Shown: positions 15,551-39,575, counted from the stretch's first letter. The stretch is 64,000 nucleotides of DNA from Halobacteroides halobius DSM 5150 (GCF_000328625.1 NC_019978.1:1-64000); one strand, 5' to 3'. Numbers and translations: made by a program. The notes: generated by a model not told the origin, from the letters alone.

Positions 15551-20147
<4,597 letters not shown>

Positions 20148-20436: not shown

Positions 20437-20511
20437 TGGGGTGTCGCCAAGTGGTAAGGCACAGGACTTTGACTCCTGCACTCGTTGGTTCAAATCCAGC
20501 CACCCCAGCCA
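20437..20511 (+). tRNA. tRNA-Gln (TTG)
   Basis: Acceptor TGGGGTG pairs with CACCCCA; the anticodon loop CTTTGAC gives TTG; TGGTTCAAATCC forms the T arm. The CCA end is encoded. Confidence 0.95.
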
Positions 20512-28456: not shown

Positions 28457-28548
28457 GGAGGGGTGTCCGAGTTCGGTTTATGGTGGCAGACTTGAAATCT
28501 GCTGTGCGTTTATGCGCACCGTGGGTTCGAATCCCACCCCCTCCGCCA
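28457..28548 (+). tRNA. tRNA-Ser (TGA), copy 1
   Basis: Acceptor GGAGGGG pairs with CCCCTCC; anticodon stem GCAGA/TCTGC encloses CTTGAAA, giving TGA. It has the long serine variable arm GTGCGTTTATGCGCAC. The CCA end is encoded. A near-identical copy lies at 39140-39231. Confidence 0.95.
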
Positions 28549-28780
28549 TTATCAATTTACAATTAACAATTGTTAATTGTAAATTGTAAACCAAAGAATA
28601 AATTCAGTTTGAAATTAAGTTTAAGATTAAATTCACCATAAAATTACTAGTAATAATTTATGGTTTAACAGTTACTCAAGCTTAGTCCCTATTATTTTAT
28701 TTATTCTTTATTAATTGTGATTTATTATTTGAACTTAATTGTAATAAATTGTTCATTGTCAATTCTCAATTGAATAACGT
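28549..28780. repeat. AT-rich inverted-repeat element, copy B
   Basis: About 230 bp between two tRNA-Ser genes. The outer arms (28551-28590 and 28736-28775) are imperfect inverted repeats of the same ACAATTGA/TTGTAAATTG type as copies A, C and D. The core holds a palindrome at 28635-28664 (ACCATAAA...TTTATGGT) and is clearly homologous to the core of copy C. No coding capacity is seen. Confidence 0.65.
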
Positions 28781-28874
28781 GGAGAGATACCCAAGTGGCT
28801 GAAGGGGCGGGTTTGCTAAACCTGTAGTAGGGCATCAAGCTCTAGCGAGGGTTCAAATCCCTCTCTCTCCGCCA
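28781..28874 (+). tRNA. tRNA-Ser (GCT), copy 1
   Basis: Acceptor GGAGAGA pairs with TCTCTCC; anticodon loop TTGCTAA gives GCT; long variable arm typical of serine. The CCA end is encoded. A second copy lies at 39482-39575. Confidence 0.95.
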
Positions 28875-28910: not shown

Positions 28911-29001
28911 TTTTTTGGTTAAGTAATATTTAGAAGATTTTCTATTTTAATTCTCAGCTTGTAGATAGCTATAAACTATGGTAATATAATAATGAAATTA
29001 T

Positions 29002-29019
29002 TTGTTAAAAAAATAACAA
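29002..29019. promoter_or_regulatory. Rex operator in front of the hydrogenase operon
   Basis: TTGTTAAAAAAATAACAA is an 18-bp inverted repeat one base from the clostridial Rex consensus TTGTTAA-N4-TTAACAA. The identical 18-mer occurs at 34692-34709 before adhE, and the rex gene is the last gene of this operon. It lies just downstream of a possible -10 TATAAT (28985-28990), where bound Rex would block transcription. Confidence 0.85.
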
Positions 29020-29032
29020 AAGGGATGGTAGC

Positions 29033-29278
29033 ATGAACGAAATTACAGTTTGTGTTGGCAGTAGTTGTCACTTAAAAGGAGCACCGCAGATAATAAAGAA
29101 ACTCAAGAAACTAGTCAGAAGATATGATTTAGAGACTGAGGTTAACTTGAGTGCTTCTTTTTGTTTAGGGTGTTGTACAGAAGGAGTAATTGTAAAATTT
29201 GATGAAGAAATTATAACTAATGTAAGTCCAGATAATATAGTGGATATCTTTTACTCCCAACTTGAAGGAGAGATATAA
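29033..29278 (+). CDS. Thioredoxin-like [2Fe-2S] ferredoxin
   Basis: An 81-aa protein with CVGSSC near the N-terminus and CLGCC near residue 44, the four-cysteine pattern of thioredoxin-like [2Fe-2S] proteins (the fold of HydC/NuoE C-terminal domains). It would pass electrons to or from the adjacent hydrogenase-like protein. It is the first gene behind the Rex operator; ATG 29033 has GGGATGG upstream. The next gene starts directly after its stop. A related protein is encoded at 32133. Confidence 0.85.
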   Translation: MNEITVCVGSSCHLKGAPQIIKKLKKLVRRYDLETEVNLSASFCLGCCTEGVIVKFDEEIITNVSPDNIVDIFYSQLEGEI

Positions 29279-30967
29279 ATGGGGATTATTACACTGACTG
29301 AATCTGATTGTAAGGATTGTCATCGTTGTATTAGAAATTGTTCTCTAAAGGCAATTGGAAATAAAGGAGGACAATCAGAGGTAGTAGAGGATAAATGTAT
29401 TTATTGTGGAGAATGTATAGAAGTTTGTCCGCAAAATGCTAAAGAAGTTAGTAATCAATTAACTGAGTTAAAAAAAATATTAGAGGGTGAAGAATTGATA
29501 GCTAGCTTGGCCCCTTCTTTTGTAGCTGCATTTGATTGTCAACCTAATCAGTTAGTGGCAGCTTTAAAAGAACTGGGATTTAGTGCAGTAGAGGAGACTG
29601 CTAAGGGAGCAGAAGTAATTACTAAACATTATAATCAACTATTAACTAAACGAAATAAACCACTTATATCAGCTTGTTGTCCTGCAGTAGTGAATTTGAT
29701 AGAAAGACATTATCCAGAATTAATTCCTTATTTAGCTCCTAGTATTTCTCCTATGGTTGCTCATGGGAAGATGATTAAAGAGAAGTATACCGATGCTAAA
29801 GTTGTTTTTATTGGCCCTTGTATTGCCAAATTAGATGAGGTGAGTTGGGATAGTTCTAAAGAAGCTATTGATTTAGCTATTACTTTTGATCAATTACAAG
29901 AATTACTAATCCAATCGCAAATAGATTATAAGAATTTAGAACCAGTAAAAAGAAATAATTCTATATCATCCTGGGCTACTGCTTTTCCAGTAGAAGGTGG
30001 AGTTTTAAAGAGTGCTGAATTAAACACAGATTTTAATAGTGATATATTATCTGTATCAGGGTTAGATGAATGTATTAATACTTTTCAGGATTTGTTAGCT
30101 ACAGAAATAAGTCCTAGATTTATTGAAGCTATGGTCTGTAATGGAGGATGTATTAATGGGCCAGGTTTATCATCTGAATTAGGTGTTAATGCTAGAAGAG
30201 AAAAAATAGTTAATTATACACAAAATATAGTTAAACAGAAAAAAAACCAACACCGGTTAGATAGCAATTTAAAGCGTAGTTATACAAACAAAAAAGCTGA
30301 AATAGATCTACCAACTGAGAATCAAATTAAATTAATCTTATCCCAAATAGGCAAATTTAGCCCAGAAGATGAATTAGATTGTGGAGGGTGTGGTTATAAT
30401 TCTTGTCGAGAAAAGGCAATAGCAGTCTATCAAGGGTTAGCTGAAAATAGAATGTGTATCCCTTATATGAAAGGTAAATTAGAGTCATTAGCGGATATAA
30501 TAGTGGAAACTTCTCCTAATGCAATTATTGTAGTTGATAAGGATATGGTTATTCAAAAGTTTAATCCTCAAGCAAATAAGCTTTTTAATCGAAGAGATGA
30601 ACTAGCAATTGGTAATAAACTGCATCGCTATCTTGATCCCCAGGATTTTATTAATGTAGCAGATAGTAAAAAATGTATTTCTAGAAAAAAGGTTGAGTAT
30701 AAGCAGTATGATGTGATTGTAGAAGAAGCAATCTTTCCCTTACCAGAGTATGATTTGATAGTAGGGATTTTAACCGATGTTACAGAACAAGAAAAGCATA
30801 AAGAGAAGGTAGCTAAGATGAAAGAGACGACTTTAGAAAAGGCTAATGCTGTGATTAATAAACAGATGAAAGTAGCTCAAGAGATTGCTGGATTATTAGG
30901 GGAATCAACTTCTGAAACTAAAGCTATTTTGCATGAAGTTAGAGAATTAATGAGGGAGGAGCGGTAG
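29279..30967 (+). CDS. Sensory [FeFe]-hydrogenase-like protein with PAS domain (group C type)
   Basis: The 562-aa protein has, in order: two [4Fe-4S] ferredoxin motifs (Cys 11, 14, 17, 21 and 40, 43, 46, 50); an [FeFe]-hydrogenase catalytic domain with diverged H-cluster motifs SACCPAV (L1), FIGPCIAKLDE (L2) and VCNGGCINGPG (L3); a further cysteine cluster CGGCGYNSC plus a distal Cys (about 370-392); a PAS domain (about 405-510, VETSPNAIIVVDKDM); and a helical tail. Hydrogenases of this architecture are classed as putatively sensory (group C) because the catalytic domain is joined to signalling modules. H2 or redox sensing is therefore inferred, not shown. It is followed by a SpoIIE-type phosphatase. 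Confidence 0.85.
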   Translation: MGIITLTESDCKDCHRCIRNCSLKAIGNKGGQSEVVEDKCIYCGECIEVCPQNAKEVSNQLTELKKILEGEELIASLAPSFVAAFDCQPNQLVAALKELGFSAVEETAKGAEVITKHYNQLLTKRNKPLISACCPAVVNLIERHYPELIPYLAPSISPMVAHGKMIKEKYTDAKVVFIGPCIAKLDEVSWDSSKEAIDLAITFDQLQELLIQSQIDYKNLEPVKRNNSISSWATAFPVEGGVLKSAELNTDFNSDILSVSGLDECINTFQDLLATEISPRFIEAMVCNGGCINGPGLSSELGVNARREKIVNYTQNIVKQKKNQHRLDSNLKRSYTNKKAEIDLPTENQIKLILSQIGKFSPEDELDCGGCGYNSCREKAIAVYQGLAENRMCIPYMKGKLESLADIIVETSPNAIIVVDKDMVIQKFNPQANKLFNRRDELAIGNKLHRYLDPQDFINVADSKKCISRKKVEYKQYDVIVEEAIFPLPEYDLIVGILTDVTEQEKHKEKVAKMKETTLEKANAVINKQMKVAQEIAGLLGESTSETKAILHEVRELMREER

Positions 30968-30969
30968 TG

Positions 30970-32118
30970 ATGCACGTAGAAACTAGTGCTGCTCATGTTT
31001 CTAAGCATGGTGAAGAGTTGTGTGGAGATAATGTTCAGGTAGTAGGTAATGAAGATGCTAAGATTATAGTCTTATCTGATGGATTAGGTAGTGGAGTTAA
31101 GGCTAATATTTTATCTACTTTAACAACTAAGATAGCAAGTGGCTTATTAGAAAAAGGAATTCCTATTGAAGAAGTTGTTGAAACTATAACCCAGACATTA
31201 CCTGTTTGCCAAGAACGACAGTTAGCTTATTCAACGTTATCTGTATTAAAGGTCTTTAATGATGGTAGATGTTATTTAGTTGAGATAGATAATCCATCTT
31301 CTTTTTTAATTAACAAACAAGGTCAAATTACTAAGTTAGAGATGAATGAAAGACAGGTTGGTGACAAGGAGATTAAGGAGGCTCACTTTAAACTTAAAGA
31401 AGATGAGATGATAATGTTAGTTAGTGATGGAGTAGTACATGCTGGAATTGGAGGTTTGCTTAATTTTGGTTTGGGTTGGGATGGGGTAGCTAAGCATTTA
31501 GAAGATTATATAAAAAAGTATGAAAGTAGTAATAAGATTGCTCAAAAATTAGTAGAACTTTGTGAAGCTTATTATTGTATGGAACCAGGGGATGATACAA
31601 CAGCAGTAGTTGTAAAGTTTAGATCACAAAGGAAGATTACCCTTTTTACCGGTCCACCTAAAGAGAAAGAAACGGATAAAGAAGTAGTAGACAAATTAGT
31701 TTCTAGTGATAGTAAGAAGGTGATTTGTGGAGGCACAACAGCACAAATTGTTGCTCGAGAATTAGATCGAGAATTAGAGGTTGAGTTAAGTTATCATGAT
31801 CAAGAGGTACCTCCTATTTCCAAGATGGAGGGGATGGATTTAGTAACTGAAGGATTGCTGACTTTAAGTAAATGTTTAGAACGACTTAAGGAGGCTGATT
31901 GCCAAGAAGATTTACCTGTTAAAGAAGATGGAGCAACTAAATTAGCTAGATTATTATTAAAAAGTGATCAAGTAAAACTACTTGTAGGTCAAGCGGTTAA
32001 TTCTGCCCACCAAAGTTTAAAGTTACCGCAGGAAATGGCGATCAGAAAACAAATTATTGAAAAGTTAGTTAAATCTTTAGAGAGACAAGGAAAAGAAATT
32101 CAAATAAATTGGTTTTAA
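30970..32118 (+). CDS. SpoIIE-type PP2C serine phosphatase
   Basis: A 382-aa protein. Residues 1-220 are a SpoIIE/PP2C-like phosphatase domain with metal-binding aspartates in LSDGLGSG, VSDGVVHAG and PGDDTTAVVVKF. The remaining 160 residues include KVICGGTTAQIVARELDRELEVEL, a segment common in such hydrogenase-linked phosphatases, whose role I do not know. These phosphatases typically dephosphorylate STAS-type anti-anti-sigma factors; no partner gene is visible here. ATG 30970 is preferred (GGGAGGAG at 30954-30961); GTG 30967 is the alternative. Its position behind the PAS-hydrogenase suggests it is the output of that sensor. Confidence 0.82.
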   Translation: MHVETSAAHVSKHGEELCGDNVQVVGNEDAKIIVLSDGLGSGVKANILSTLTTKIASGLLEKGIPIEEVVETITQTLPVCQERQLAYSTLSVLKVFNDGRCYLVEIDNPSSFLINKQGQITKLEMNERQVGDKEIKEAHFKLKEDEMIMLVSDGVVHAGIGGLLNFGLGWDGVAKHLEDYIKKYESSNKIAQKLVELCEAYYCMEPGDDTTAVVVKFRSQRKITLFTGPPKEKETDKEVVDKLVSSDSKKVICGGTTAQIVARELDRELEVELSYHDQEVPPISKMEGMDLVTEGLLTLSKCLERLKEADCQEDLPVKEDGATKLARLLLKSDQVKLLVGQAVNSAHQSLKLPQEMAIRKQIIEKLVKSLERQGKEIQINWF

Positions 32119-32132
32119 AAGGAGGGCCGAAG

Positions 32133-32357
32133 ATGAAATTAAAGGTTTGTATTGGGACACCTTGTCATTTAATGGGAGCACAAAATTTGATTTCGGCGGT
32201 GAAAGAATTTAGTCACAAGAAAACTATTAAGCTTGATATAGAAGCAGTAAATTGTTTAGATAACTGTAAACAAGCACCAGCAGTAGAGTTAGATGGGAAA
32301 GTCTATGCTCCTTCTACTCCCCAAGAATTAATTGAGTTGATTGAAAACAGGTTATAA
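32133..32357 (+). CDS. Thioredoxin-like [2Fe-2S] ferredoxin (second copy)
   Basis: A 74-aa protein with CIGTPC at the N-terminus and CLDNC near residue 41, the same [2Fe-2S] thioredoxin-like pattern as the gene at 29033. ATG 32133 follows AAAGGAGG. It lies 30 bp before the catalytic-type hydrogenase and probably serves as its electron partner; this mirrors the ferredoxin/hydrogenase pairing at the start of the operon. Confidence 0.83.
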   Translation: MKLKVCIGTPCHLMGAQNLISAVKEFSHKKTIKLDIEAVNCLDNCKQAPAVELDGKVYAPSTPQELIELIENRL

Positions 32358-32386
32358 ATTGAATAAGTTTATAAGGAGGCTAAATA

Positions 32387-33898
32387 ATGACTAATGATGT
32401 ATCAGGAATCACTAAATTAAGACGCAAACTGTTTAGTAAAGTGGCTGAATTGGCTTTAAATAATAATTTGAGAGCTGAAGTTAATAATCTAGCGCAGACA
32501 GTAATTCCTGAGGAAGGATTAGGATATAGATGTTGTGTGCATAAAGAGCGAGCAATTGTTAAGGATAGAATTAAGTCAGCCTTAGGTTTAGAACCTAATG
32601 GAGAAGTATCAGATTTAAGTGCAGCAGTTGACCAGGCGTTAGAACTAGATGATTTAACAGGGCCAACTGTCAATGTATTAGATATTGCTTGTGATAGGTG
32701 CCCCTTAGATAAATATAGAGTTAGTGATGCTTGTCGAAACTGTGTGGATCATAGTTGTATGAATGCTTGTCCCCAAGATGCAATAGTAACCGTACAAAAT
32801 AGGGCTTATATTGACCAGGAGAAGTGTATTGAATGTGGTTTATGTAAACAGTCATGTCCTTATAATGCTATTTTAGAGATGACTCGTCCTTGTGAATCTG
32901 CATGTGGAGTTGATGCTATTGAAGCCAATAATGATCGACAGGCTAATATTGACCCAAAACATTGTGTTTCGTGTGGAGCCTGTATTGAATCTTGTCCTTT
33001 TGGAGCTATCACTTATAAATCACAGATTTTACAGGTTGCTAAAATGTTAAAGAAAGAGAAAACGATAGCTGTTTTAGCCCCTTCTTTTGTAGGACAATTT
33101 GGGCCACAAGTAACCCCCAACCAAATTAAACAAGGGTTAACTAAATTAGGTTTTGATAAGGTTCATGAAGTAGCTTTAGGGGCAGATATTGTAGCTATTG
33201 AAGAGACAAAAGAGTTATTAGCTAAGGTACCAAAAGAGCAAGAATTTTTAACAACATCTTGTTGTCCTTCATTTTTTACCTTACTTAAGCAGGAGTTTCC
33301 ACAGTTAATTGAGAAATCATCTAGTACAGTCTCTCCAATGGTAGCTATAGCTAAAGTATTGAAAAAAGAGTCTTCAGATGCTAAGATAGTATTTGTTGGC
33401 CCATGTATTGCTAAAAAAGATGAAGGATTAGCTTATAATGAAGTTGATGCTGTATTAACTTTTGAAGAATTAGGAGCTATGTTTGTTGGGGCAGGAATTA
33501 ATTTAGTTCAATTAGCAGGGGATAATAAATTTAAAGAAGCATCAGATGCTGGAAGGACTTTTGGTAGAGCTGGAGGATTAGTAAAGGCAGTTACTGGTTC
33601 AGCTACAGAACTTGAACCTAAGATAGAATTTGAAGCTATTCAGGCTGAAGGGTTAGAAGAATGTACTAAAACTTTAAGATTAGCTCAAGCAGGACAATAC
33701 CAAAACTACTTTATTGAAGGGATGGGTTGTACTGGAGGTTGTGTTGGTGGTCCAGCTGCTTTAATGAATAGTAAATTCACGACTAAACAAGTTAATGATT
33801 TTGGTTCTAAGGCACAGATTAACGAAGCTATAGAAAATAAGCAAGCCCAAGAGATGATAGATAAGTTAGGAAGTGAAGAATTTCATCGTCAAAAGTAG
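32387..33898 (+). CDS. [FeFe]-hydrogenase (group B-like, monomeric)
   Basis: The 503-aa protein has an N-terminal region with conserved cysteines (GYRCCVHKERA; ACDRCPLDK), ferredoxin motifs (CRNCVDHSCMNACP; CIECGLCKQSCP; CVSCGACIESCP) and an [FeFe]-hydrogenase H-cluster domain with TTSCCPSF (L1), FVGPCIAKKDE (L2) and GCTGGCVGGPA (L3). The motif set and size resemble group B hydrogenases of clostridia, which are probably ferredoxin-linked; direction (H2 production in fermentation) is inferred. ATG 32387 has AAGGAGG upstream. It lies directly before rex, under the Rex operator at 29002. Confidence 0.87.
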   Translation: MTNDVSGITKLRRKLFSKVAELALNNNLRAEVNNLAQTVIPEEGLGYRCCVHKERAIVKDRIKSALGLEPNGEVSDLSAAVDQALELDDLTGPTVNVLDIACDRCPLDKYRVSDACRNCVDHSCMNACPQDAIVTVQNRAYIDQEKCIECGLCKQSCPYNAILEMTRPCESACGVDAIEANNDRQANIDPKHCVSCGACIESCPFGAITYKSQILQVAKMLKKEKTIAVLAPSFVGQFGPQVTPNQIKQGLTKLGFDKVHEVALGADIVAIEETKELLAKVPKEQEFLTTSCCPSFFTLLKQEFPQLIEKSSSTVSPMVAIAKVLKKESSDAKIVFVGPCIAKKDEGLAYNEVDAVLTFEELGAMFVGAGINLVQLAGDNKFKEASDAGRTFGRAGGLVKAVTGSATELEPKIEFEAIQAEGLEECTKTLRLAQAGQYQNYFIEGMGCTGGCVGGPAALMNSKFTTKQVNDFGSKAQINEAIENKQAQEMIDKLGSEEFHRQK

Positions 33899-33909
33899 GA
33901 GGAGTATAA

Positions 33910-34548
33910 ATGGTTGAAAAGAATGGAGAGTCAATTGTCATCCCTAGTGCTGTAATTAAAAGATTACCTAAATATCATCGGAATTTAGAAAGTTTACTTG
34001 ATAAGGGAGTAGAAAGAATTTCTTCACGAGAATTTGGCAAAATTGCTGGTGTTTCTGCTCCACAGTTACGTCAAGATTTGAATCACTTTGGTAATTTTGG
34101 ACAACAAGGATACGGATATAATGTTGAGAATTTATATAATGCTCTTTCTAAGATTATGGGGATTGAAAAAAAGAGTAATATGGTTTTAGTAGGAGTTGGG
34201 AATATAGGTCAAGCATTAGTCAACTCCACTGATTTTACAAAGCGTGGTTTTTATTTATCAGCTATTTTTGATATTAATCCACGGTTAGTAGGAATTAAAA
34301 TTAATGGTTTAGAAGTTAAAGATGTCAGTCAATTAGAGAATTATATTACAGAACATAAAATTAAAATTGGAGTTATTGCAGTACCAGAAAAGGCTGCTCA
34401 AGAAATAGCTAACAAAATGGTTAGAGCGGGAATACAAGGAATCTGGAATTTTGCTCCTGTTGATTTAAAATGTCCCCAAGAAATAAAAATAGAGAATGAA
34501 CATCTAACTGAAGGTTTGTTGAGACTTTCTTTTAAGATCGATGAATGA
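33910..34548 (+). CDS. rex: Redox-sensing transcriptional repressor Rex
   Basis: Rex represses fermentative genes when NADH/NAD+ is low and is released by NADH. The 212-aa protein has an N-terminal winged helix (about 8-80, ISSREFGKIAGVSAPQLRQDLNHFG) and a Rossmann domain with GVGNIGQALV near residue 96, followed by the C-terminal domain-swapped helix. ATG 33910 follows AGGAGGAG, 11 bp after the hydrogenase stop. As last gene of an operon that begins with a Rex-type operator it should be autoregulated; adhE downstream carries the same operator. Confidence 0.95.
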   Translation: MVEKNGESIVIPSAVIKRLPKYHRNLESLLDKGVERISSREFGKIAGVSAPQLRQDLNHFGNFGQQGYGYNVENLYNALSKIMGIEKKSNMVLVGVGNIGQALVNSTDFTKRGFYLSAIFDINPRLVGIKINGLEVKDVSQLENYITEHKIKIGVIAVPEKAAQEIANKMVRAGIQGIWNFAPVDLKCPQEIKIENEHLTEGLLRLSFKIDE

Positions 34549-34568: not shown

Positions 34569-34597
34569 TTGACAACTAAAAGGAGCTATGCTATTAT
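34569..34597 (+). promoter_or_regulatory. Sigma-A-type promoter in the rex-adhE gap
   Basis: TTGACA (34569-34574), 17-bp spacer, TATTAT (34592-34597). A terminator-like hairpin follows within 25 bp and the Rex-type operators lie further downstream, so this may be the adhE promoter with an attenuating leader. Confidence 0.7.
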
Positions 34598-34620
34598 TTA
34601 AGTGAAGATAAGGGTGAGTA

Positions 34621-34643
34621 TCAGTCTTGAGGGCTGTTTTTTT
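34621..34643 (+). terminator. Intrinsic terminator or attenuator between rex and adhE
   Basis: CAGTC (34622-34626) pairs with GGCTG (34632-34636) around TTGAG and is followed by T7. It could end the hydrogenase-rex transcript, or attenuate the transcript from the promoter at 34569. Confidence 0.7.
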
Positions 34644-34651
34644 ACAAGATA

Positions 34652-34691: not shown

Positions 34692-34709
34692 TTGTTAAAA
34701 AAATAACAA
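34692..34709. promoter_or_regulatory. Rex operator before adhE
   Basis: TTGTTAAAAAAATAACAA, identical over all 18 bases to the site at 29002-29019. It lies 28 bp before the adhE start codon. Confidence 0.85.
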
Positions 34710-34736: not shown

Positions 34737-37337
34737 ATGGCTGTTCAAGAGAAAGAGGTTCAACATAGGTCAGAGGCTCAAGAGATGGTTGATGGTTTAA
34801 TTTCTAAGGCGCAAAAGGCACAAAAAGAATTAGCTCAGATGAATCAAGAAGAGATTGATCAAATTGTCGAAGAAATGGTTTTAGCTGGTGTAGATAAGCA
34901 TATTGAGCTAGCTAAGTTAGCAGTAGAGGATACTGGTATGGGGGTTTATGAAGATAAGATAGCTAAGAATATTTTTTCTACTGAATATATTTATAATGAT
35001 ATTAAAGATAAAAAGACAGTTGGAGTATTAGAAGAAAATAAAGTAGAAGGTACTGTTAAGATTGCTGAACCTGTTGGTGTAATTGCTGGTATCACTCCAA
35101 CAACCAATCCAACTTCAACTACCATGTTTAAGGCTTTAACTGCCTTAAAGGCTGGAAACTCAATTGTATTTAGTTTTCACCCAAGTGCTTTAGAATGTAG
35201 TGCTAAATCAGCTCAGATTTTACATGATGCTGCAGTTAAAGCAGGTGCTCCTGAAGGTTGTATTAGTTGGATTAGTGAACCTTCTTTAGAAGCTACAAAT
35301 GCATTAATGAAACATGATGGTGTAGATATGATTTTAGCAACTGGTGGAGCCGGGATGGTTAAGGCAGCTTATAGTTCTGGTACTCCTGCATTAGGTGTTG
35401 GCCCAGGTAATGTGCCAGCTTATGTAGAGAAATCTGTTAATTTAAAGCAAGCAATTAATGATATAGTAATGAGTAAATCTTTTGATAATGGTACTATTTG
35501 TGCTTCTGAACAAGCGATCATTCTTGATAAAGAGATTGCTGAAGAGGCTAAAGGATTATTAGTCCAAAATCATTGTTATATGTTAGATGAGAAAGAAATT
35601 AAAAAGGTAGAAGAAGTTGCTATAGATAAAGAAAGAAATGCTATGAGTCCTGAGGTTGTAGGACAGTCAGCTACTAAGATTGCCCAGTTAGCTGGAATTG
35701 ATGTTCCTAAAGATACAGTTGTGTTAGTTGCTCCTATTAATGGGGTTGGCCCAGATTATCCTTTATCTAGAGAGAAGTTAAGTCCTATCTTAGCTTTAAT
35801 TGAAGTTGAAGATTCTGATGAAGGAATTCAAAAAGCTATTGAAATGACTGAATTTGGTGGATTAGGACACTCTGCTGTAATTCATTCTAATGATGATAAA
35901 GTGATTGAAGAGTTTGGTAACAAACTGCAAGTTGGTAGAGTTATTGTTAATGCTCCAAGTGCTTTAGGTGGTATTGGAGATATTTACAATAATTTTGCGC
36001 CATCATTAACTCTAGGCTGTGGAACATTTGGTGGTAATGCAGTAAGTGAAAATGTAACTGTAGATCACCTATACAATGTAAAGACAGTTGCTAAACGGAA
36101 GACTGAAAGATTATGGGTTAAAGTACCACCTGAGATTTATACAGAAGCAGGATCATTAGCTAAATTAGCTGATGAAGAAGGAAAAAAGGCTGCAATTATT
36201 ACTGATCAAGTAATGGTTGATTTAGGCTATGTAGATCAAGTGACTGAATATTTAGAGGAAGCTGGAGTAGATTATAGAGTCTTTGATGAAGTTGAACCTG
36301 ATCCTTCTGTTGAAACAGTAATGAAAGGGAAAGACTTTATTGAAGAGTTTGGAGCAGATACTATTATTGCTCTTGGTGGTGGATCTCCAATGGATGCTGC
36401 TAAGGGAATGTGGTTATTCTATGAACATCCAGAAGCTAAATTTAGAGATTTAAAGCTTAGATTTGCTGATATTAAGAAGAGAACTTATGAATTTCCTAAT
36501 TTAGGAGAAAAAGCAAAGTTTATTGCAGTACCAACAACTAGTGGTACTGGTTCTGAGGTAACTGCTTTTGCTGTAATTACTGATAAGAAGAATGACATTA
36601 AGTATCCACTAGCTTCTTATGAATTGACTCCAGATATGGCAATTATTGATTCTGATTTAACTATGACTGTGCCAGCTAGTGTAACTGCTAATACTGGTAT
36701 TGATGTTTTAACTCATGCTATTGAAGCTTATGTAGCTACTTTATCTTCTGATTATACGGATGCTTTAGCTTTACAAGCTATTAGAATGGTTTTTAAGTAT
36801 TTACCACGTGCTTATAAGAATGGTCAACAGGATAGAGAAGCTAGAGAAAAAATGCATAATGCTTCTTGCATGGCAGGAATTGCCTTTACTAATGCTTTCT
36901 TAGGTATTAATCACAGTTTAGCTCATATTTTAGGTGGAAAATTCCATATTCCACATGGATTAGCTAATGGAGTATTAATGCCCCATGTAATTAGATATAA
37001 TGCTGCGACACCTACAAAGTGGGCTATTTTCCCTAATTATAGATATCATAAAGCAGATGAGGAATATGCTGAAATTGCTAGAAATTTAGGGTTGGAGGCT
37101 AATACGCCAGAAGAGGGTGTAGAAAATTTAGTTGAAGCTATTAAAGATCTGATGAAAGAATTAGATATGCCATTAACAATTGCTGATTGTGATATTGAAT
37201 GGTCAGATTTTGAAGAAAAGATTAGTGAAATGGCAGATGTAGCATTCAATGACCAGTGTACACCTGCTAATCCACGTAAACCAAGAGTAAGTGAGTTAGA
37301 AGAAATTTATAAAAAAGCTTATGGTGATAGAAAGTAG
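34737..37337 (+). CDS. adhE: Bifunctional acetaldehyde-CoA/alcohol dehydrogenase AdhE
   Basis: AdhE reduces acetyl-CoA to acetaldehyde and then ethanol, using two NADH. The 866-aa fusion has an N-terminal aldehyde dehydrogenase domain (about 1-440) with catalytic Cys258 in FDNGTICASEQ, a linker, and a C-terminal iron-containing alcohol dehydrogenase domain with the NAD-binding GGGSPMDAAKGM and metal-binding histidines in HSLAHILGGKFHIPHGLANG. ATG 34737 follows AAGGAGGAG. Rex-type operators upstream fit a classic Rex target. Ethanol is thus a likely fermentation product. A strong terminator follows. Confidence 0.97.
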   Translation: MAVQEKEVQHRSEAQEMVDGLISKAQKAQKELAQMNQEEIDQIVEEMVLAGVDKHIELAKLAVEDTGMGVYEDKIAKNIFSTEYIYNDIKDKKTVGVLEENKVEGTVKIAEPVGVIAGITPTTNPTSTTMFKALTALKAGNSIVFSFHPSALECSAKSAQILHDAAVKAGAPEGCISWISEPSLEATNALMKHDGVDMILATGGAGMVKAAYSSGTPALGVGPGNVPAYVEKSVNLKQAINDIVMSKSFDNGTICASEQAIILDKEIAEEAKGLLVQNHCYMLDEKEIKKVEEVAIDKERNAMSPEVVGQSATKIAQLAGIDVPKDTVVLVAPINGVGPDYPLSREKLSPILALIEVEDSDEGIQKAIEMTEFGGLGHSAVIHSNDDKVIEEFGNKLQVGRVIVNAPSALGGIGDIYNNFAPSLTLGCGTFGGNAVSENVTVDHLYNVKTVAKRKTERLWVKVPPEIYTEAGSLAKLADEEGKKAAIITDQVMVDLGYVDQVTEYLEEAGVDYRVFDEVEPDPSVETVMKGKDFIEEFGADTIIALGGGSPMDAAKGMWLFYEHPEAKFRDLKLRFADIKKRTYEFPNLGEKAKFIAVPTTSGTGSEVTAFAVITDKKNDIKYPLASYELTPDMAIIDSDLTMTVPASVTANTGIDVLTHAIEAYVATLSSDYTDALALQAIRMVFKYLPRAYKNGQQDREAREKMHNASCMAGIAFTNAFLGINHSLAHILGGKFHIPHGLANGVLMPHVIRYNAATPTKWAIFPNYRYHKADEEYAEIARNLGLEANTPEEGVENLVEAIKDLMKELDMPLTIADCDIEWSDFEEKISEMADVAFNDQCTPANPRKPRVSELEEIYKKAYGDRK

Positions 37338-37340
37338 TAT

Positions 37341-37378
37341 AATAAACAGGGCCAACCTTAAGGTTGGCCCTGTTTATT
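37341..37378. terminator. Bidirectional terminator between adhE and parR
   Basis: A perfect 19-bp inverted repeat without spacer (37341-37359 with 37360-37378), GC-rich in the middle and with A/T ends on both sides, serving both convergent genes. Confidence 0.92.
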
Positions 37379-37748
37379 ATAGATTGTTTAATTGGTCAAG
37401 AATTATATCTTGAGTTCTGGCCTGTTCTTTTGAAACATCTTTTATTAACTGATCTTCCTTTTTATCTTCTTTGATTTCAAAATCATCTTCTTTAAGGTTC
37501 TTAATTACATAACCTAAGACTTCTTCTTTTAAGTCTTGCTTTTTCTCATGTTTTATTTCTTGATTTGTATTTTTATTTACTTTTTGTTCAGACTTGTATA
37601 ATGAAATAATTAATTTTCTAATAAACTCAGTTTTGCTTCCAGCATGATTATAATATTTATCTTTAAGCCAGCTTAGAGCTTCATTAGGCATATTTTTATT
37701 AGAGAAGGTGACATCAATTCTTAGTTTGAAGTCATCATTTATATCCAT
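37377..37748 (-). CDS. Putative ParR-like partition adaptor
   Basis: A 123-aa protein. Residues 1-60 (FKLRIDVTFSNKNMPNEALSW, GSKTEFIRKLIISLY) look like a small ribbon-helix-helix DNA-binding domain. The rest is highly charged, with many Lys and Glu, likely disordered or coiled. Six bases separate it from the upstream ParM-like actin gene, the normal parM-parR order, so a role as the DNA-binding adaptor of the filament is likely. The assignment rests on context more than on similarity. ATG 37748 (minus) has AAGGAG upstream. Confidence 0.6.
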   Translation of the reverse strand: MDINDDFKLRIDVTFSNKNMPNEALSWLKDKYYNHAGSKTEFIRKLIISLYKSEQKVNKNTNQEIKHEKKQDLKEEVLGYVIKNLKEDDFEIKEDKKEDQLIKDVSKEQARTQDIILDQLNNL

Positions 37749-37754
37749 AGTACC

Positions 37755-38819
37755 TTACTCCTTTTGTTCTTTATTATAAATTGTTTCAGCCCTTAATAGA
37801 TAACCTAAAACATTTGCGAGCTGAGGATTAGGAATAGCTTGTATACCAATCCTACCAAACTCTTTTTTAAGGAATGGGGCTAGTAGTTTTGCTCCTCCTC
37901 CAACGATTAGAATTTGATTGATTAGACTAATGAAGTCTCTCCATTCATTTCTAGTTGCCTTAAAGATCTCTCTAGCTAACTCTTGATAACATTTATTAAC
38001 AATATCTCTAATCGATTTTTCTTCTTGATTATAAGTGATAGTATCTTGTTGATTTACTACTGCACTTCTAATTAGATTTTCGTCTATATTTAGGTTGTTA
38101 CTCACTGCTCTAAAAACATTAGACATTCCAATATCGGAGCTAAAAGGAGATTCATTAATTATTTCCCCACAGTTGTAAGCTAGTCCATCTGTTGTTCTTC
38201 CTCCTACATCAATGATTGCTATTTTATCTCGCATTATATCTGCATTATTATCTTGATTTAAGTAATATAGTAAAGCTCCAGCAGCTTGAGGAACTACTAC
38301 TATATCATTTATTGTATAGCGAACAGTTACTTCTTTACCATTTCTAGCGGTTATTTTACTTTTAAATTTACCTTCGAACCTTTCTTTCATACCTTTTTTA
38401 TGATTACGGTGATGCTGAATAGGTAACCCGGTTACTAATTTGTCTATATAAATCCTATTAGCATTAGGATAAAGAGTTGATAGCCCAGCTAATAATTTAG
38501 CTAATTCTTCTTCTGATTGATATTTGTTTACTTCATAGTTAGAGCCACCACTCTCTAATTGGTTGACTATATAATCTCCTACCATAAAATCGTACCACTC
38601 ATCATTTTTATCTTGGACTTCAATTAACATTTTTTCTTTAGAAAAGCTTTGGCCCAGACCTAACTCCTTTTTATCGATTAGACTAGTTGTTCTTTCTTTA
38701 GCTAAACTAGGAAAAGTTAAAGGCTTTTGATTAGAGTCTTTCATTTGATTTGTAATCAGCTTACATGTATCATAGCCAGAATCCCATCCGCAATAAGAAA
38801 CATTTACACCAATACCCAT
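37755..38819 (-). CDS. ParM/StbA-like actin-family ATPase
   Basis: A 354-aa actin-like protein of the plasmid-segregation group. Phosphate-1-type motif GIGVNVSYCGWDSGYDTCKL at the N-terminus, phosphate-2 IDVGGRTTDGLAYNCGE near residue 198, and the adenosine motif IGGGAKLLAP-like ILIVGGGAKLLAPFLKKEFG near 310 are visible. ParM polymers push plasmid copies apart when bound to ParR on parC. ATG 38819 (minus) is preferred because GAGGTG lies 7 bp upstream; GTG 38828 is the alternative. Finding it in the chromosome beside oriC-proximal genes suggests an integrated plasmid or phage remnant, or a recruited cytoskeletal role. Confidence 0.82.
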   Translation of the reverse strand: MGIGVNVSYCGWDSGYDTCKLITNQMKDSNQKPLTFPSLAKERTTSLIDKKELGLGQSFSKEKMLIEVQDKNDEWYDFMVGDYIVNQLESGGSNYEVNKYQSEEELAKLLAGLSTLYPNANRIYIDKLVTGLPIQHHRNHKKGMKERFEGKFKSKITARNGKEVTVRYTINDIVVVPQAAGALLYYLNQDNNADIMRDKIAIIDVGGRTTDGLAYNCGEIINESPFSSDIGMSNVFRAVSNNLNIDENLIRSAVVNQQDTITYNQEEKSIRDIVNKCYQELAREIFKATRNEWRDFISLINQILIVGGGAKLLAPFLKKEFGRIGIQAIPNPQLANVLGYLLRAETIYNKEQKE

Positions 38820-38899
38820 TATTAACACCTCTTCAATATTTTTACATTACATTTTAATTATAATTAAAAGATTAGCTATTAGTCAATAGAAAATTCGAT

Positions 38900-39139: not shown

Positions 39140-39231
39140 GGAGGGGTGTCCGAGTCCGGTTTATGGTGGCAGACTTGAAATCTGCTGTGCGTTTATGCGT
39201 ACCGTGGGTTCGAATCCCACCCCCTCCGCCA
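39140..39231 (+). tRNA. tRNA-Ser (TGA), copy 2
   Basis: Differs from copy 1 (28457) at only two visible positions, one in the D arm (GTCCGG for GTTCGG) and one in the variable arm (GCGTACC for GCGCACC). The CCA end is encoded. Confidence 0.95.
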
Positions 39232-39481
39232 TTATCAATTTACTATTGATAATCGGCAATTGGAGACCAAAGAATAATAATTAAAGAAAGAATAATAAAT
39301 TCAGTTTGAGATTGAGTTTAAGATTAGATTCACCATAAAATCACTAGTAATAATTTATGGTTTAACAGTTACTCAAACTTAGTCTCTATTATTTTATATT
39401 TTATTTATTCTTTATTAATTGTGATTTATTATTTGAACTTAATTGTAAATTGTCCATTGTCCATTTTCAATTGAATAGCGT
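39232..39481. repeat. AT-rich inverted-repeat element, copy C
   Basis: About 250 bp between the two tRNA-Ser genes of the second cassette. It is homologous to copy B over the whole core, including the ACCATAAA...TTTATGGT palindrome, with small insertions (a duplicated AAGAATAATAA segment near 39275 and an extra ATTTTAT near 39395). The right arm ends in TTTTCAATTGAAT. No coding capacity is seen. Confidence 0.65.
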
Positions 39482-39575
39482 GGAGAGATACCCAAGTGGC
39501 TGAAGGGGCGGGTTTGCTAAACCTGTAGTAGGGCATCAAGCTCTAGCGAGGGTTCAAATCCCTCTCTCTCCGCCA
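39482..39575 (+). tRNA. tRNA-Ser (GCT), copy 2
   Basis: Same sequence as copy 1 at 28781 as far as I can see. Anticodon GCT in loop TTGCTAA; the CCA end is encoded. Confidence 0.95.

Follow-up and report, generated by a model that had tools for sequence, protein, structure and literature searches.

The hfs-rex locus of Halobacteroides halobius

We analyzed bases 1-64000 (hereafter the window) of the 2.65-Mb single-contig genome of Halobacteroides halobius DSM 5150, which contain a compact block of hydrogenase and regulatory genes that we call the hfs-rex locus. Research on syntrophy and biofuels has long asked how fermenters choose between H2 and ethanol. Group C hydrogenases are suspected H2 gauges, and we know of no output pathway that has been established for them. 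Two observations on this locus are new: the hydrogenase-like protein HfsB has an invariant C-terminal tail that is apparently its signal output, and identical, perfect operators for the repressor Rex are common to the H2 (hfs) and ethanol (adhE) genes. The features of the locus are as follows.

28962-28990, + strand: promoter-like -35/-10 elements (TAGATA-17-TATAAT) of the hfs-rex operon, a consensus match only
29002-29019, + strand: perfect Rex operator, TTGTTAAAAAAATAACAA, directly 3' of the -10 element and 13 bp ahead of the hfsA ATG
29033-29278, + strand: hfsA, thioredoxin-like [2Fe-2S] protein (Pfam/NCBIfam, 2.1e-9), with cysteines arranged as C-x4-C...C-x3-C
29279-30967, + strand: hfsB, predicted sensory [FeFe]-hydrogenase (Fer4, Fe_hyd_lg_C at 3e-56, FeS domain PF04060, PAS)
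30857-30934, + strand: core of the hfsB tail, amino acids 527-552, NKQMKVAQEIAGLLGESTSETKAILH, the most conserved segment and a predicted helix-turn-helix hairpin
30967-32118, + strand: hfsC, SpoIIE-type PP2C phosphatase (2e-18)
30967-31626, + strand: PP2C/SpoIIE domain of hfsC, amino acids 1-220, with every metal-binding Asp present
31627-32115, + strand: C-terminal alpha/beta domain of hfsC, amino acids 221-383, conserved, confidently modelled and of unassigned family
32109-32357, + strand: second thioredoxin-like [2Fe-2S] gene (2e-13), with ATG 32133 as an alternative start
32387-33898, + strand: hfsD, catalytic monomeric group B [FeFe]-hydrogenase (FeFe_hydrog_B1, TIGR04105)
33910-34548, + strand: rex, NADH/NAD+-sensing repressor (Rex family match)
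34622-34645, + strand: terminator-like hairpin and T run after rex
34692-34709, + strand: second Rex operator, identical to the first, upstream of adhE
34737-37337, + strand: adhE, bifunctional acetaldehyde/alcohol dehydrogenase (NF010378, 1343 bits), a putative co-target with its own upstream region
37338-37381, no strand assigned: perfect 20-bp palindromic hairpin, likely a terminator acting in both directions, for adhE and for the parM-side genes

The six open reading frames from hfsA to rex occupy 29033-34548 on the + strand and are tightly packed, with junctions of 0, -1, -10, +29 and +11 bp; the third becomes +14 bp if the fourth gene begins at its internal ATG. An earlier annotation of this locus, here called the original prediction, had described six same-strand genes with gaps below 30 bp, a PAS domain fused to an H-cluster domain, and a PP2C phosphatase lying between two hydrogenases, all of which agree with these junctions and with the Pfam/NCBIfam matches. 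It had also described two pairs of a ferredoxin-like protein and a hydrogenase. The pairs are present, but the small proteins are thioredoxin-like [2Fe-2S] domains rather than classical ferredoxins, and the second of them is presumed to be the partner of HfsD. Both HfsD (574 bits, against a curated TIGR04105 cut-off of 450) and Rex (300 bits against 233, with the Rex domains present) score well above their family thresholds. The adhE gene and the two Rex operators had been overlooked.

The locus is a member of the already known hfsABCD operon type, first described in Thermoanaerobacterium saccharolyticum (Shaw 2009; PMC5707799; PMC11837493). The order hfsA-hfsB-hfsC-hfsD is kept on one strand, with one extra gene ahead of hfsD, and because the same block is conserved across the organism's class and beyond, the arrangement is not due to chance. 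In T. saccharolyticum, the operon likewise consists of a small protein, the PAS-containing hydrogenase HfsB, the SpoIIE-like phosphatase HfsC and the catalytic HfsD, with a predicted Rex site before hfsA. It differs from the H. halobius locus, where a second [2Fe-2S] gene separates hfsC from hfsD, rex comes last, and adhE follows with an identical Rex operator. The operon, the idea of a sensor and the Rex site upstream of hfsABCD (PMC5886521, Table 5) have thus already been published for Thermoanaerobacterium, and the picture given by the original prediction is right in outline.

Rex operators

The two perfect Rex boxes in the window are unlikely to arise from base composition, as none of 300 shuffles yields two. 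Throughout the genome, there is just one more perfect TTGTTA-N6-TAACAA, approximately 25 bp ahead of an iron-alcohol dehydrogenase gene. When one mismatch is allowed, the count is 34 per strand (perfect sites included), compared with 27 in a reversed control. Since these numbers are so close, we restricted genome-wide statements to perfect sites.

Around the start of hfs in other genomes, the consensus with at most one mismatch is found in 34 of 92 loci, and in 15 of 20 within the class. By comparison, the rate is 0.8% in windows of equal size taken from other parts of these loci and 1.1% in shuffled sequences; because the loci are related, any nominal P value for this enrichment is too small. 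The claim that Rex adds NADH control to the hfs operon is therefore supported, on sequence grounds, by an operator that is both perfect and phylogenetically recurrent. The operator sequence and the kinds of target (adhE, rex and hydrogenase genes) are those of clostridial Rex regulons (PMC5886521, PMC6391272), whereas here rex is itself part of the hydrogenase operon under its apparent control. In the organism's own family, rex closes the block in most loci; in other loci, it is found upstream, downstream or in another place.

Given the terminator-like hairpin between rex and adhE, adhE is best regarded as a neighbouring Rex target and not as a seventh gene of the operon. A near-perfect sigma-70 promoter (TTGACA-17-TATTAT, with a TG extension) is located directly after rex, within 34569-34645. 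The succession of this promoter, the terminator-like hairpin and the Rex box of adhE might reflect leader attenuation or a short RNA. A search for sigma-54 promoters at hfs and adhE found none.

HfsB as a predicted sensory hydrogenase

HfsB consists of two N-terminal [4Fe-4S] motifs (at amino acids 11-21 and 40-50 of a region spanning 1-58), an H-cluster domain (72-298, with ligands at 134, 181, 287 and 291), a C-terminal FeS domain (346-404; PF04060, 3e-7), a PAS domain (405-505; 2.7e-6) and a tail (506-562), where the FeS and PAS matches both exceed their cut-offs. In an alignment of 59 HfsB sequences that are 36-47% identical to the protein in the window, the cysteines 134, 181, 287 and 291 as well as Lys184 are invariant (59 of 59). 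By contrast, the position of the proton-shuttle residue, Cys299 in CpI, is unconstrained, with Cys, Ala, Ser and Asn in 28, 16, 11 and 2 sequences, respectively. This variability agrees with sensory hydrogenases, for which 17% Cys and approximately 43% Ala are reported at this position (PMC10055695). A maximum-likelihood tree built from H-cluster domains places HfsB in one clade (support 96/90), apart from the group B HfsD and the trimeric HydA. The same tree joins HfsB weakly (85/47) with fusions to sigma-54 activators that are described below.

Architecture and tree thus support the assignment of the PAS protein to the sensory group C (M2f) hydrogenases and not to a catalytic group, as the original prediction had proposed; it had named placement in a catalytic clade as the finding that would speak against it, and the phylogeny places HfsB elsewhere. 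TmHydS of Thermotoga maritima and HydS of Ruminococcus albus have the same succession of N-terminal [4Fe-4S] clusters, H-cluster, C-terminal [4Fe-4S] domain and PAS. TmHydS has an alanine where HfsB of the window keeps the proton-shuttle cysteine, and the descriptions consulted do not mention an LLGE hairpin tail. Some HfsB copies located ahead of HydABC (in loci L043, L045 and L056) have one N-terminal cluster cysteine replaced (CINDGKC, CLGDGGC), which suggests a differently tuned electron path.

These features also bear on what HfsB would sense. It is conceivable that HfsB responds to ferredoxin or to the general redox state instead of H2, with electrons entering via HfsA and the N-terminal clusters and the H-cluster being an ancestral by-product. 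In 77 of 93 loci, the [2Fe-2S] gene hfsA is a direct neighbour of hfsB; the hfsA and hfsB deletion mutants of T. saccharolyticum share one phenotype (PMC5707799); and the loss of one cluster ligand (CINDGKC) in several HydABC-linked proteins means that the electron path varies. However, the invariance of all four H-cluster cysteines and the lysine would not be expected in a protein that lacks an H-cluster, and the group C enzyme TmHydS has measurable hydrogenase activity (PMC10055695). We consider pure redox sensing improbable.

A conserved HfsB tail that accompanies HfsC

Across genomes, HfsC lies directly after HfsB in 90 of the 91 loci with enough flanking sequence. The catalytic hydrogenase next to the pair varies: among 59 loci, it is of the HfsD type in 24 and of the trimeric HydA type in 18, and neither is found in 17. 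Since the adjacency of HfsB and HfsC is constant while the hydrogenase changes, the A-B-C triplet is the conserved module and the enzyme is exchangeable. Of 59 genomes in the class, 26 encode HfsB, and the set that encodes the C-terminal domain of HfsC is identical to these 26 (Fisher P 2.5e-17, a value that ignores shared ancestry and linkage). Where HfsC is duplicated, in two genomes, HfsB is present twice as well. A partnership of HfsB and HfsC is strongly supported by these comparisons of gene content and order.

The tail that follows the PAS domain has the form KQMxVAQEIAxLLGE-[ST]-T-A-E-[TS]-K, with small variations, in all 100 of 100 HfsB loci, which come from several phyla. The genome scan that retrieved these loci relied on patterns from the FeS domain and made no use of the tail. 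With an entropy of 0.76 bits, the tail core is better conserved than the FeS domain (1.29), the H-cluster domain (2.03) and the PAS domain (2.33). In a structure model of HfsB with a mean predicted local distance difference test score (pLDDT) of 89.6, the tail, which scores 67-82, is predicted to fold into two helices (502-540 and 543-560) joined by a turn at the invariant Gly541-Glu542. Position 547 is Thr or Ser in all sequences of the alignment.

A natural control is provided by eight paralogues in which the same sensor core is fused to a sigma-54 AAA+ domain. These proteins have neither the tail nor an adjoining HfsC, and ten genomes of the class contain the sigma-54-fused type without HfsC. 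Because the tail is conserved together with HfsC, and both are missing from the fused paralogues, we infer that the hairpin is the output of HfsB to HfsC.

We also considered that the tail might be a degenerate DHp (HisKA) domain of a histidine kinase, and rejected this idea. The tail of the window's HfsB matches no Pfam family even at an E-value of 10, there is no HisKA match in locus L116, and the position that would correspond to the H-box is Gln in 55 and His in 4 of 59 sequences.

The fused proteins deserve attention in their own right. They combine H-cluster, FeS and, in some cases, PAS domains with a complete sigma-54 AAA+ activator that has a helix-turn-helix domain and an intact GAFTGA or GAFSGA motif, and they are located ahead of bifurcating-type hydrogenase operons. 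A -24/-12-like sigma-54 promoter was found in 7 of 7 tested gaps at these genes, compared with 8.6% of background windows. Such a protein looks like a one-protein, H2-responsive transcription activator, and we found no description of one in the literature searched. Their locations are as follows.

L171, 4912-7533, - strand: sigma-54-fused sensor
L172, 6578-9211: sigma-54-fused sensor
L173, 6002-8671: sigma-54-fused sensor
L174, 6300-8945: sigma-54-fused sensor
L175, 5285-7939, - strand: sigma-54-fused sensor
L176, 5711-8278, - strand: sigma-54-fused sensor
L177, 8309-10552: sigma-54-fused sensor
L032, 1477-3729: sigma-54-fused sensor

The phosphatase HfsC and the search for its partner

HfsC belongs to the SpoIIE/RsbU class of PP2C phosphatases, judging by its conserved residues and modelled fold. 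The metal-binding residues Asp21, 38, 154, 209 and 210 are invariant in 62 of 62 sequences, and the model of the PP2C part has the SpoIIE fold (Z 25.7 and a root-mean-square deviation of 2.8 Å over 214 aligned residues to 3pu9). In this model, the PP2C fold begins at residue 1-2, leaving room for neither an N-terminal sensory domain nor a linker helix. The 163 C-terminal residues are modelled with confidence as an alpha/beta domain, which contains the conserved motifs GPP, CGGTT, DLVTEG and VGxAxN. This domain had no Pfam or NCBIfam match above the cut-off, and its best match among PDB sequences had an E-value of 0.64; the fold searches covered the PP2C part.

The closest mechanistic parallels are RsbP and RsbU (PMC12143880). 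Gating of RsbU by its partner through a coiled-coil linker has been demonstrated, and gating of RsbP by PAS and coiled coil has been predicted. As in those proteins, HfsC is a SpoIIE-type PP2C with an intact active site, and a PAS domain followed by a helical element would be the controlling part. Here, however, sensor and phosphatase are two proteins, and HfsC has an extra C-terminal domain. As the PAS domain and helical hairpin reside on the separate HfsB chain and HfsC is devoid of an N-terminal linker, the pair can be read as a split RsbP.

The class of HfsC would also fit classical partner switching, in which HfsC dephosphorylates a STAS anti-anti-sigma factor, and the original prediction had accordingly suggested a STAS or sigma partner elsewhere in the genome. 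In a search of the H. halobius genome with PF01740 and PF13466, however, the sole stand-alone STAS protein found was SpoIIAA, which is flanked by SpoIIAB and SigF in the spoIIA operon. The second STAS match is a domain of a 543-amino-acid protein that we assume to be SulP-like from its size. This genome also encodes a 796-amino-acid SpoIIE-like protein and, next to a Ser/Thr kinase, a further PP2C.

A possible opponent of HfsC is an RsbW-like kinase that is encoded outside the spoIIA operon, next to a group D-like [FeFe]-hydrogenase. It occurs in 25 of the 26 HfsC genomes of the class (P 3e-4, ignoring ancestry). It is, however, also present in 18 genomes without HfsC, and it is missing from the single-contig genome G040, which has two HfsC copies. 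The kinase is therefore unlikely to be an obligate opponent. We rejected a dedicated STAS or anti-sigma partner. Since only SpoIIAA stands alone and the kinase is not obligately tied to HfsC, partner switching has no clear candidate besides SpoIIAA. This part of the original prediction gained no support: a STAS/sigma partner for HfsC is unlikely, and we regard classical partner switching as very improbable.

The group D-like hydrogenase lies at approximately 2.017-2.020 Mb of the H. halobius genome (locus L060, 8632-11150, - strand), with the RsbW-like HATPase kinase, two small flanking proteins and a PHP-type protein. It lies beside an Rnf-like cluster and would be a further putative H2 sensor of H. 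halobius, besides HfsB.

A possible mechanism and its alternatives

We favour, with somewhat better than even confidence, a model in which Rex sets both outlets, HfsB gates HfsC directly via the hairpin, and HfsC shifts the split between H2 and ethanol. Rex would repress the hfs-rex operon and adhE through their identical operators, and a rise in NADH would release both, so that HfsD, the outlet for H2, and AdhE, the outlet for ethanol, would be induced together. HfsB would read H2, or the redox state of ferredoxin, with its degenerate hydrogenase site. The signal would pass from the C-terminal [4Fe-4S] domain through PAS to the helical hairpin, which would contact and gate the dedicated phosphatase HfsC in trans, similarly to the PAS/coiled-coil control of RsbP and RsbU. 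HfsC would then dephosphorylate a target other than a normal STAS partner, thereby changing the H2/ethanol split. In relatives, Rex is known to repress adhE, and published knockouts indicate that intact HfsA and HfsB hold adhE expression and hydrogenase activity down; high H2 might relieve this brake and favour ethanol.

A more specific version is tentative, and we give it less than even confidence. HfsB and HfsC would form a split, H2-gated Ser/Thr phosphatase and hence a new output for H2 sensing. The hairpin (MxVAQEIAxLLGE-x-T-x-E-[TS]-K) would dock or dimerise HfsC, or else be its phospho-Thr/Ser substrate at position 547. The C-terminal domain of HfsC would select a target that is not a STAS/sigma protein, and the sensor core could alternatively be joined to a sigma-54 activator in one protein.

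The original prediction had linked H2 with ethanol, and published genetic work on the homologous operon supports this. In T. saccharolyticum, deletion of hfsA or hfsB, but not of hfsC or hfsD, raises ethanol yield 1.8-fold and adhE mRNA 2-3-fold (PMC5707799). A published discussion already treats the PAS-containing HfsB as a putative sensor of H2 or redox state and HfsC as homologous to serine phosphatases (PMC11837493).

Alternatively, HfsB and HfsC might act on the hydrogenase rather than on transcription: HfsC could alter the phosphorylation of HfsD, or HfsA and HfsB could compete for electrons, with ethanol affected via H2 cycling through HfsD, HydAB and Nfn. Hydrogenase activity with benzyl viologen rises when hfsB is deleted (PMC5707799), hfsD alone gives a high-ethanol state (PMC11837493), for which HydAB and NfnAB are required, and the conserved C-terminal domain of HfsC could recognise such a target. 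However, adhE mRNA is also increased 2-3-fold by the hfsB deletion (PMC5707799), and HfsC is retained where HfsD is replaced by HydABC or absent, so HfsD is not an obligate target. We judge an action on the hydrogenase rather unlikely.

It is important to emphasize several points that weigh against the model of Rex control and direct gating of HfsC. Conservation was measured on the best full-length matches, a selection that favours proteins with the tail. In 58 of 92 loci, the region upstream of hfs yielded no Rex box. The HfsB of the window retains the catalytic proton-shuttle cysteine, Cys133, and so might turn over H2. In T. saccharolyticum, deletion of hfsB raises the expression of rex along with ethanol, contrary to a simple Rex chain (PMC5707799). 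In T. thermosaccharolyticum, high ethanol is restored when the full hfs operon is deleted and hfsD alone is supplied (PMC11837493), which means that this phenotype arises without HfsC.

Genomic neighbourhood

A tRNA-Ser(tga)/tRNA-Ser(gct) pair is duplicated at 28457-28874 and 39140-39575, with 94-97% identity over the tRNA genes, and the two copies bracket the hfs-rex-adhE-parM block. At 37377-38828 (- strand), a ParM/Alp-type actin (PHROG 691 partition protein, 5.5e-49) and a small open reading frame form a plasmid-like segregation pair on the chromosome. This pair adjoins the duplicated tRNA pair and was not seen in the hfs neighbourhoods of relatives in the class. Elsewhere in the window, the GC content reaches 49% at 16001-20000, compared with 30-38% around it, possibly reflecting rRNA genes ahead of a tRNA array at 20437.

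Significance

The value of these results lies in a pinned-down output segment, a phosphatase without a STAS partner and the common Rex operators. Comparative genomics narrows a vague sensor hypothesis to one partner, HfsC, and a 26-residue segment that apparently carries the output, and thus makes it accessible to tests by point mutation. The identical operators tie the NADH input, through Rex, to both the H2 and the ethanol outlets. If HfsC indeed needs no STAS partner, the known role of SpoIIE-type phosphatases would be wider.

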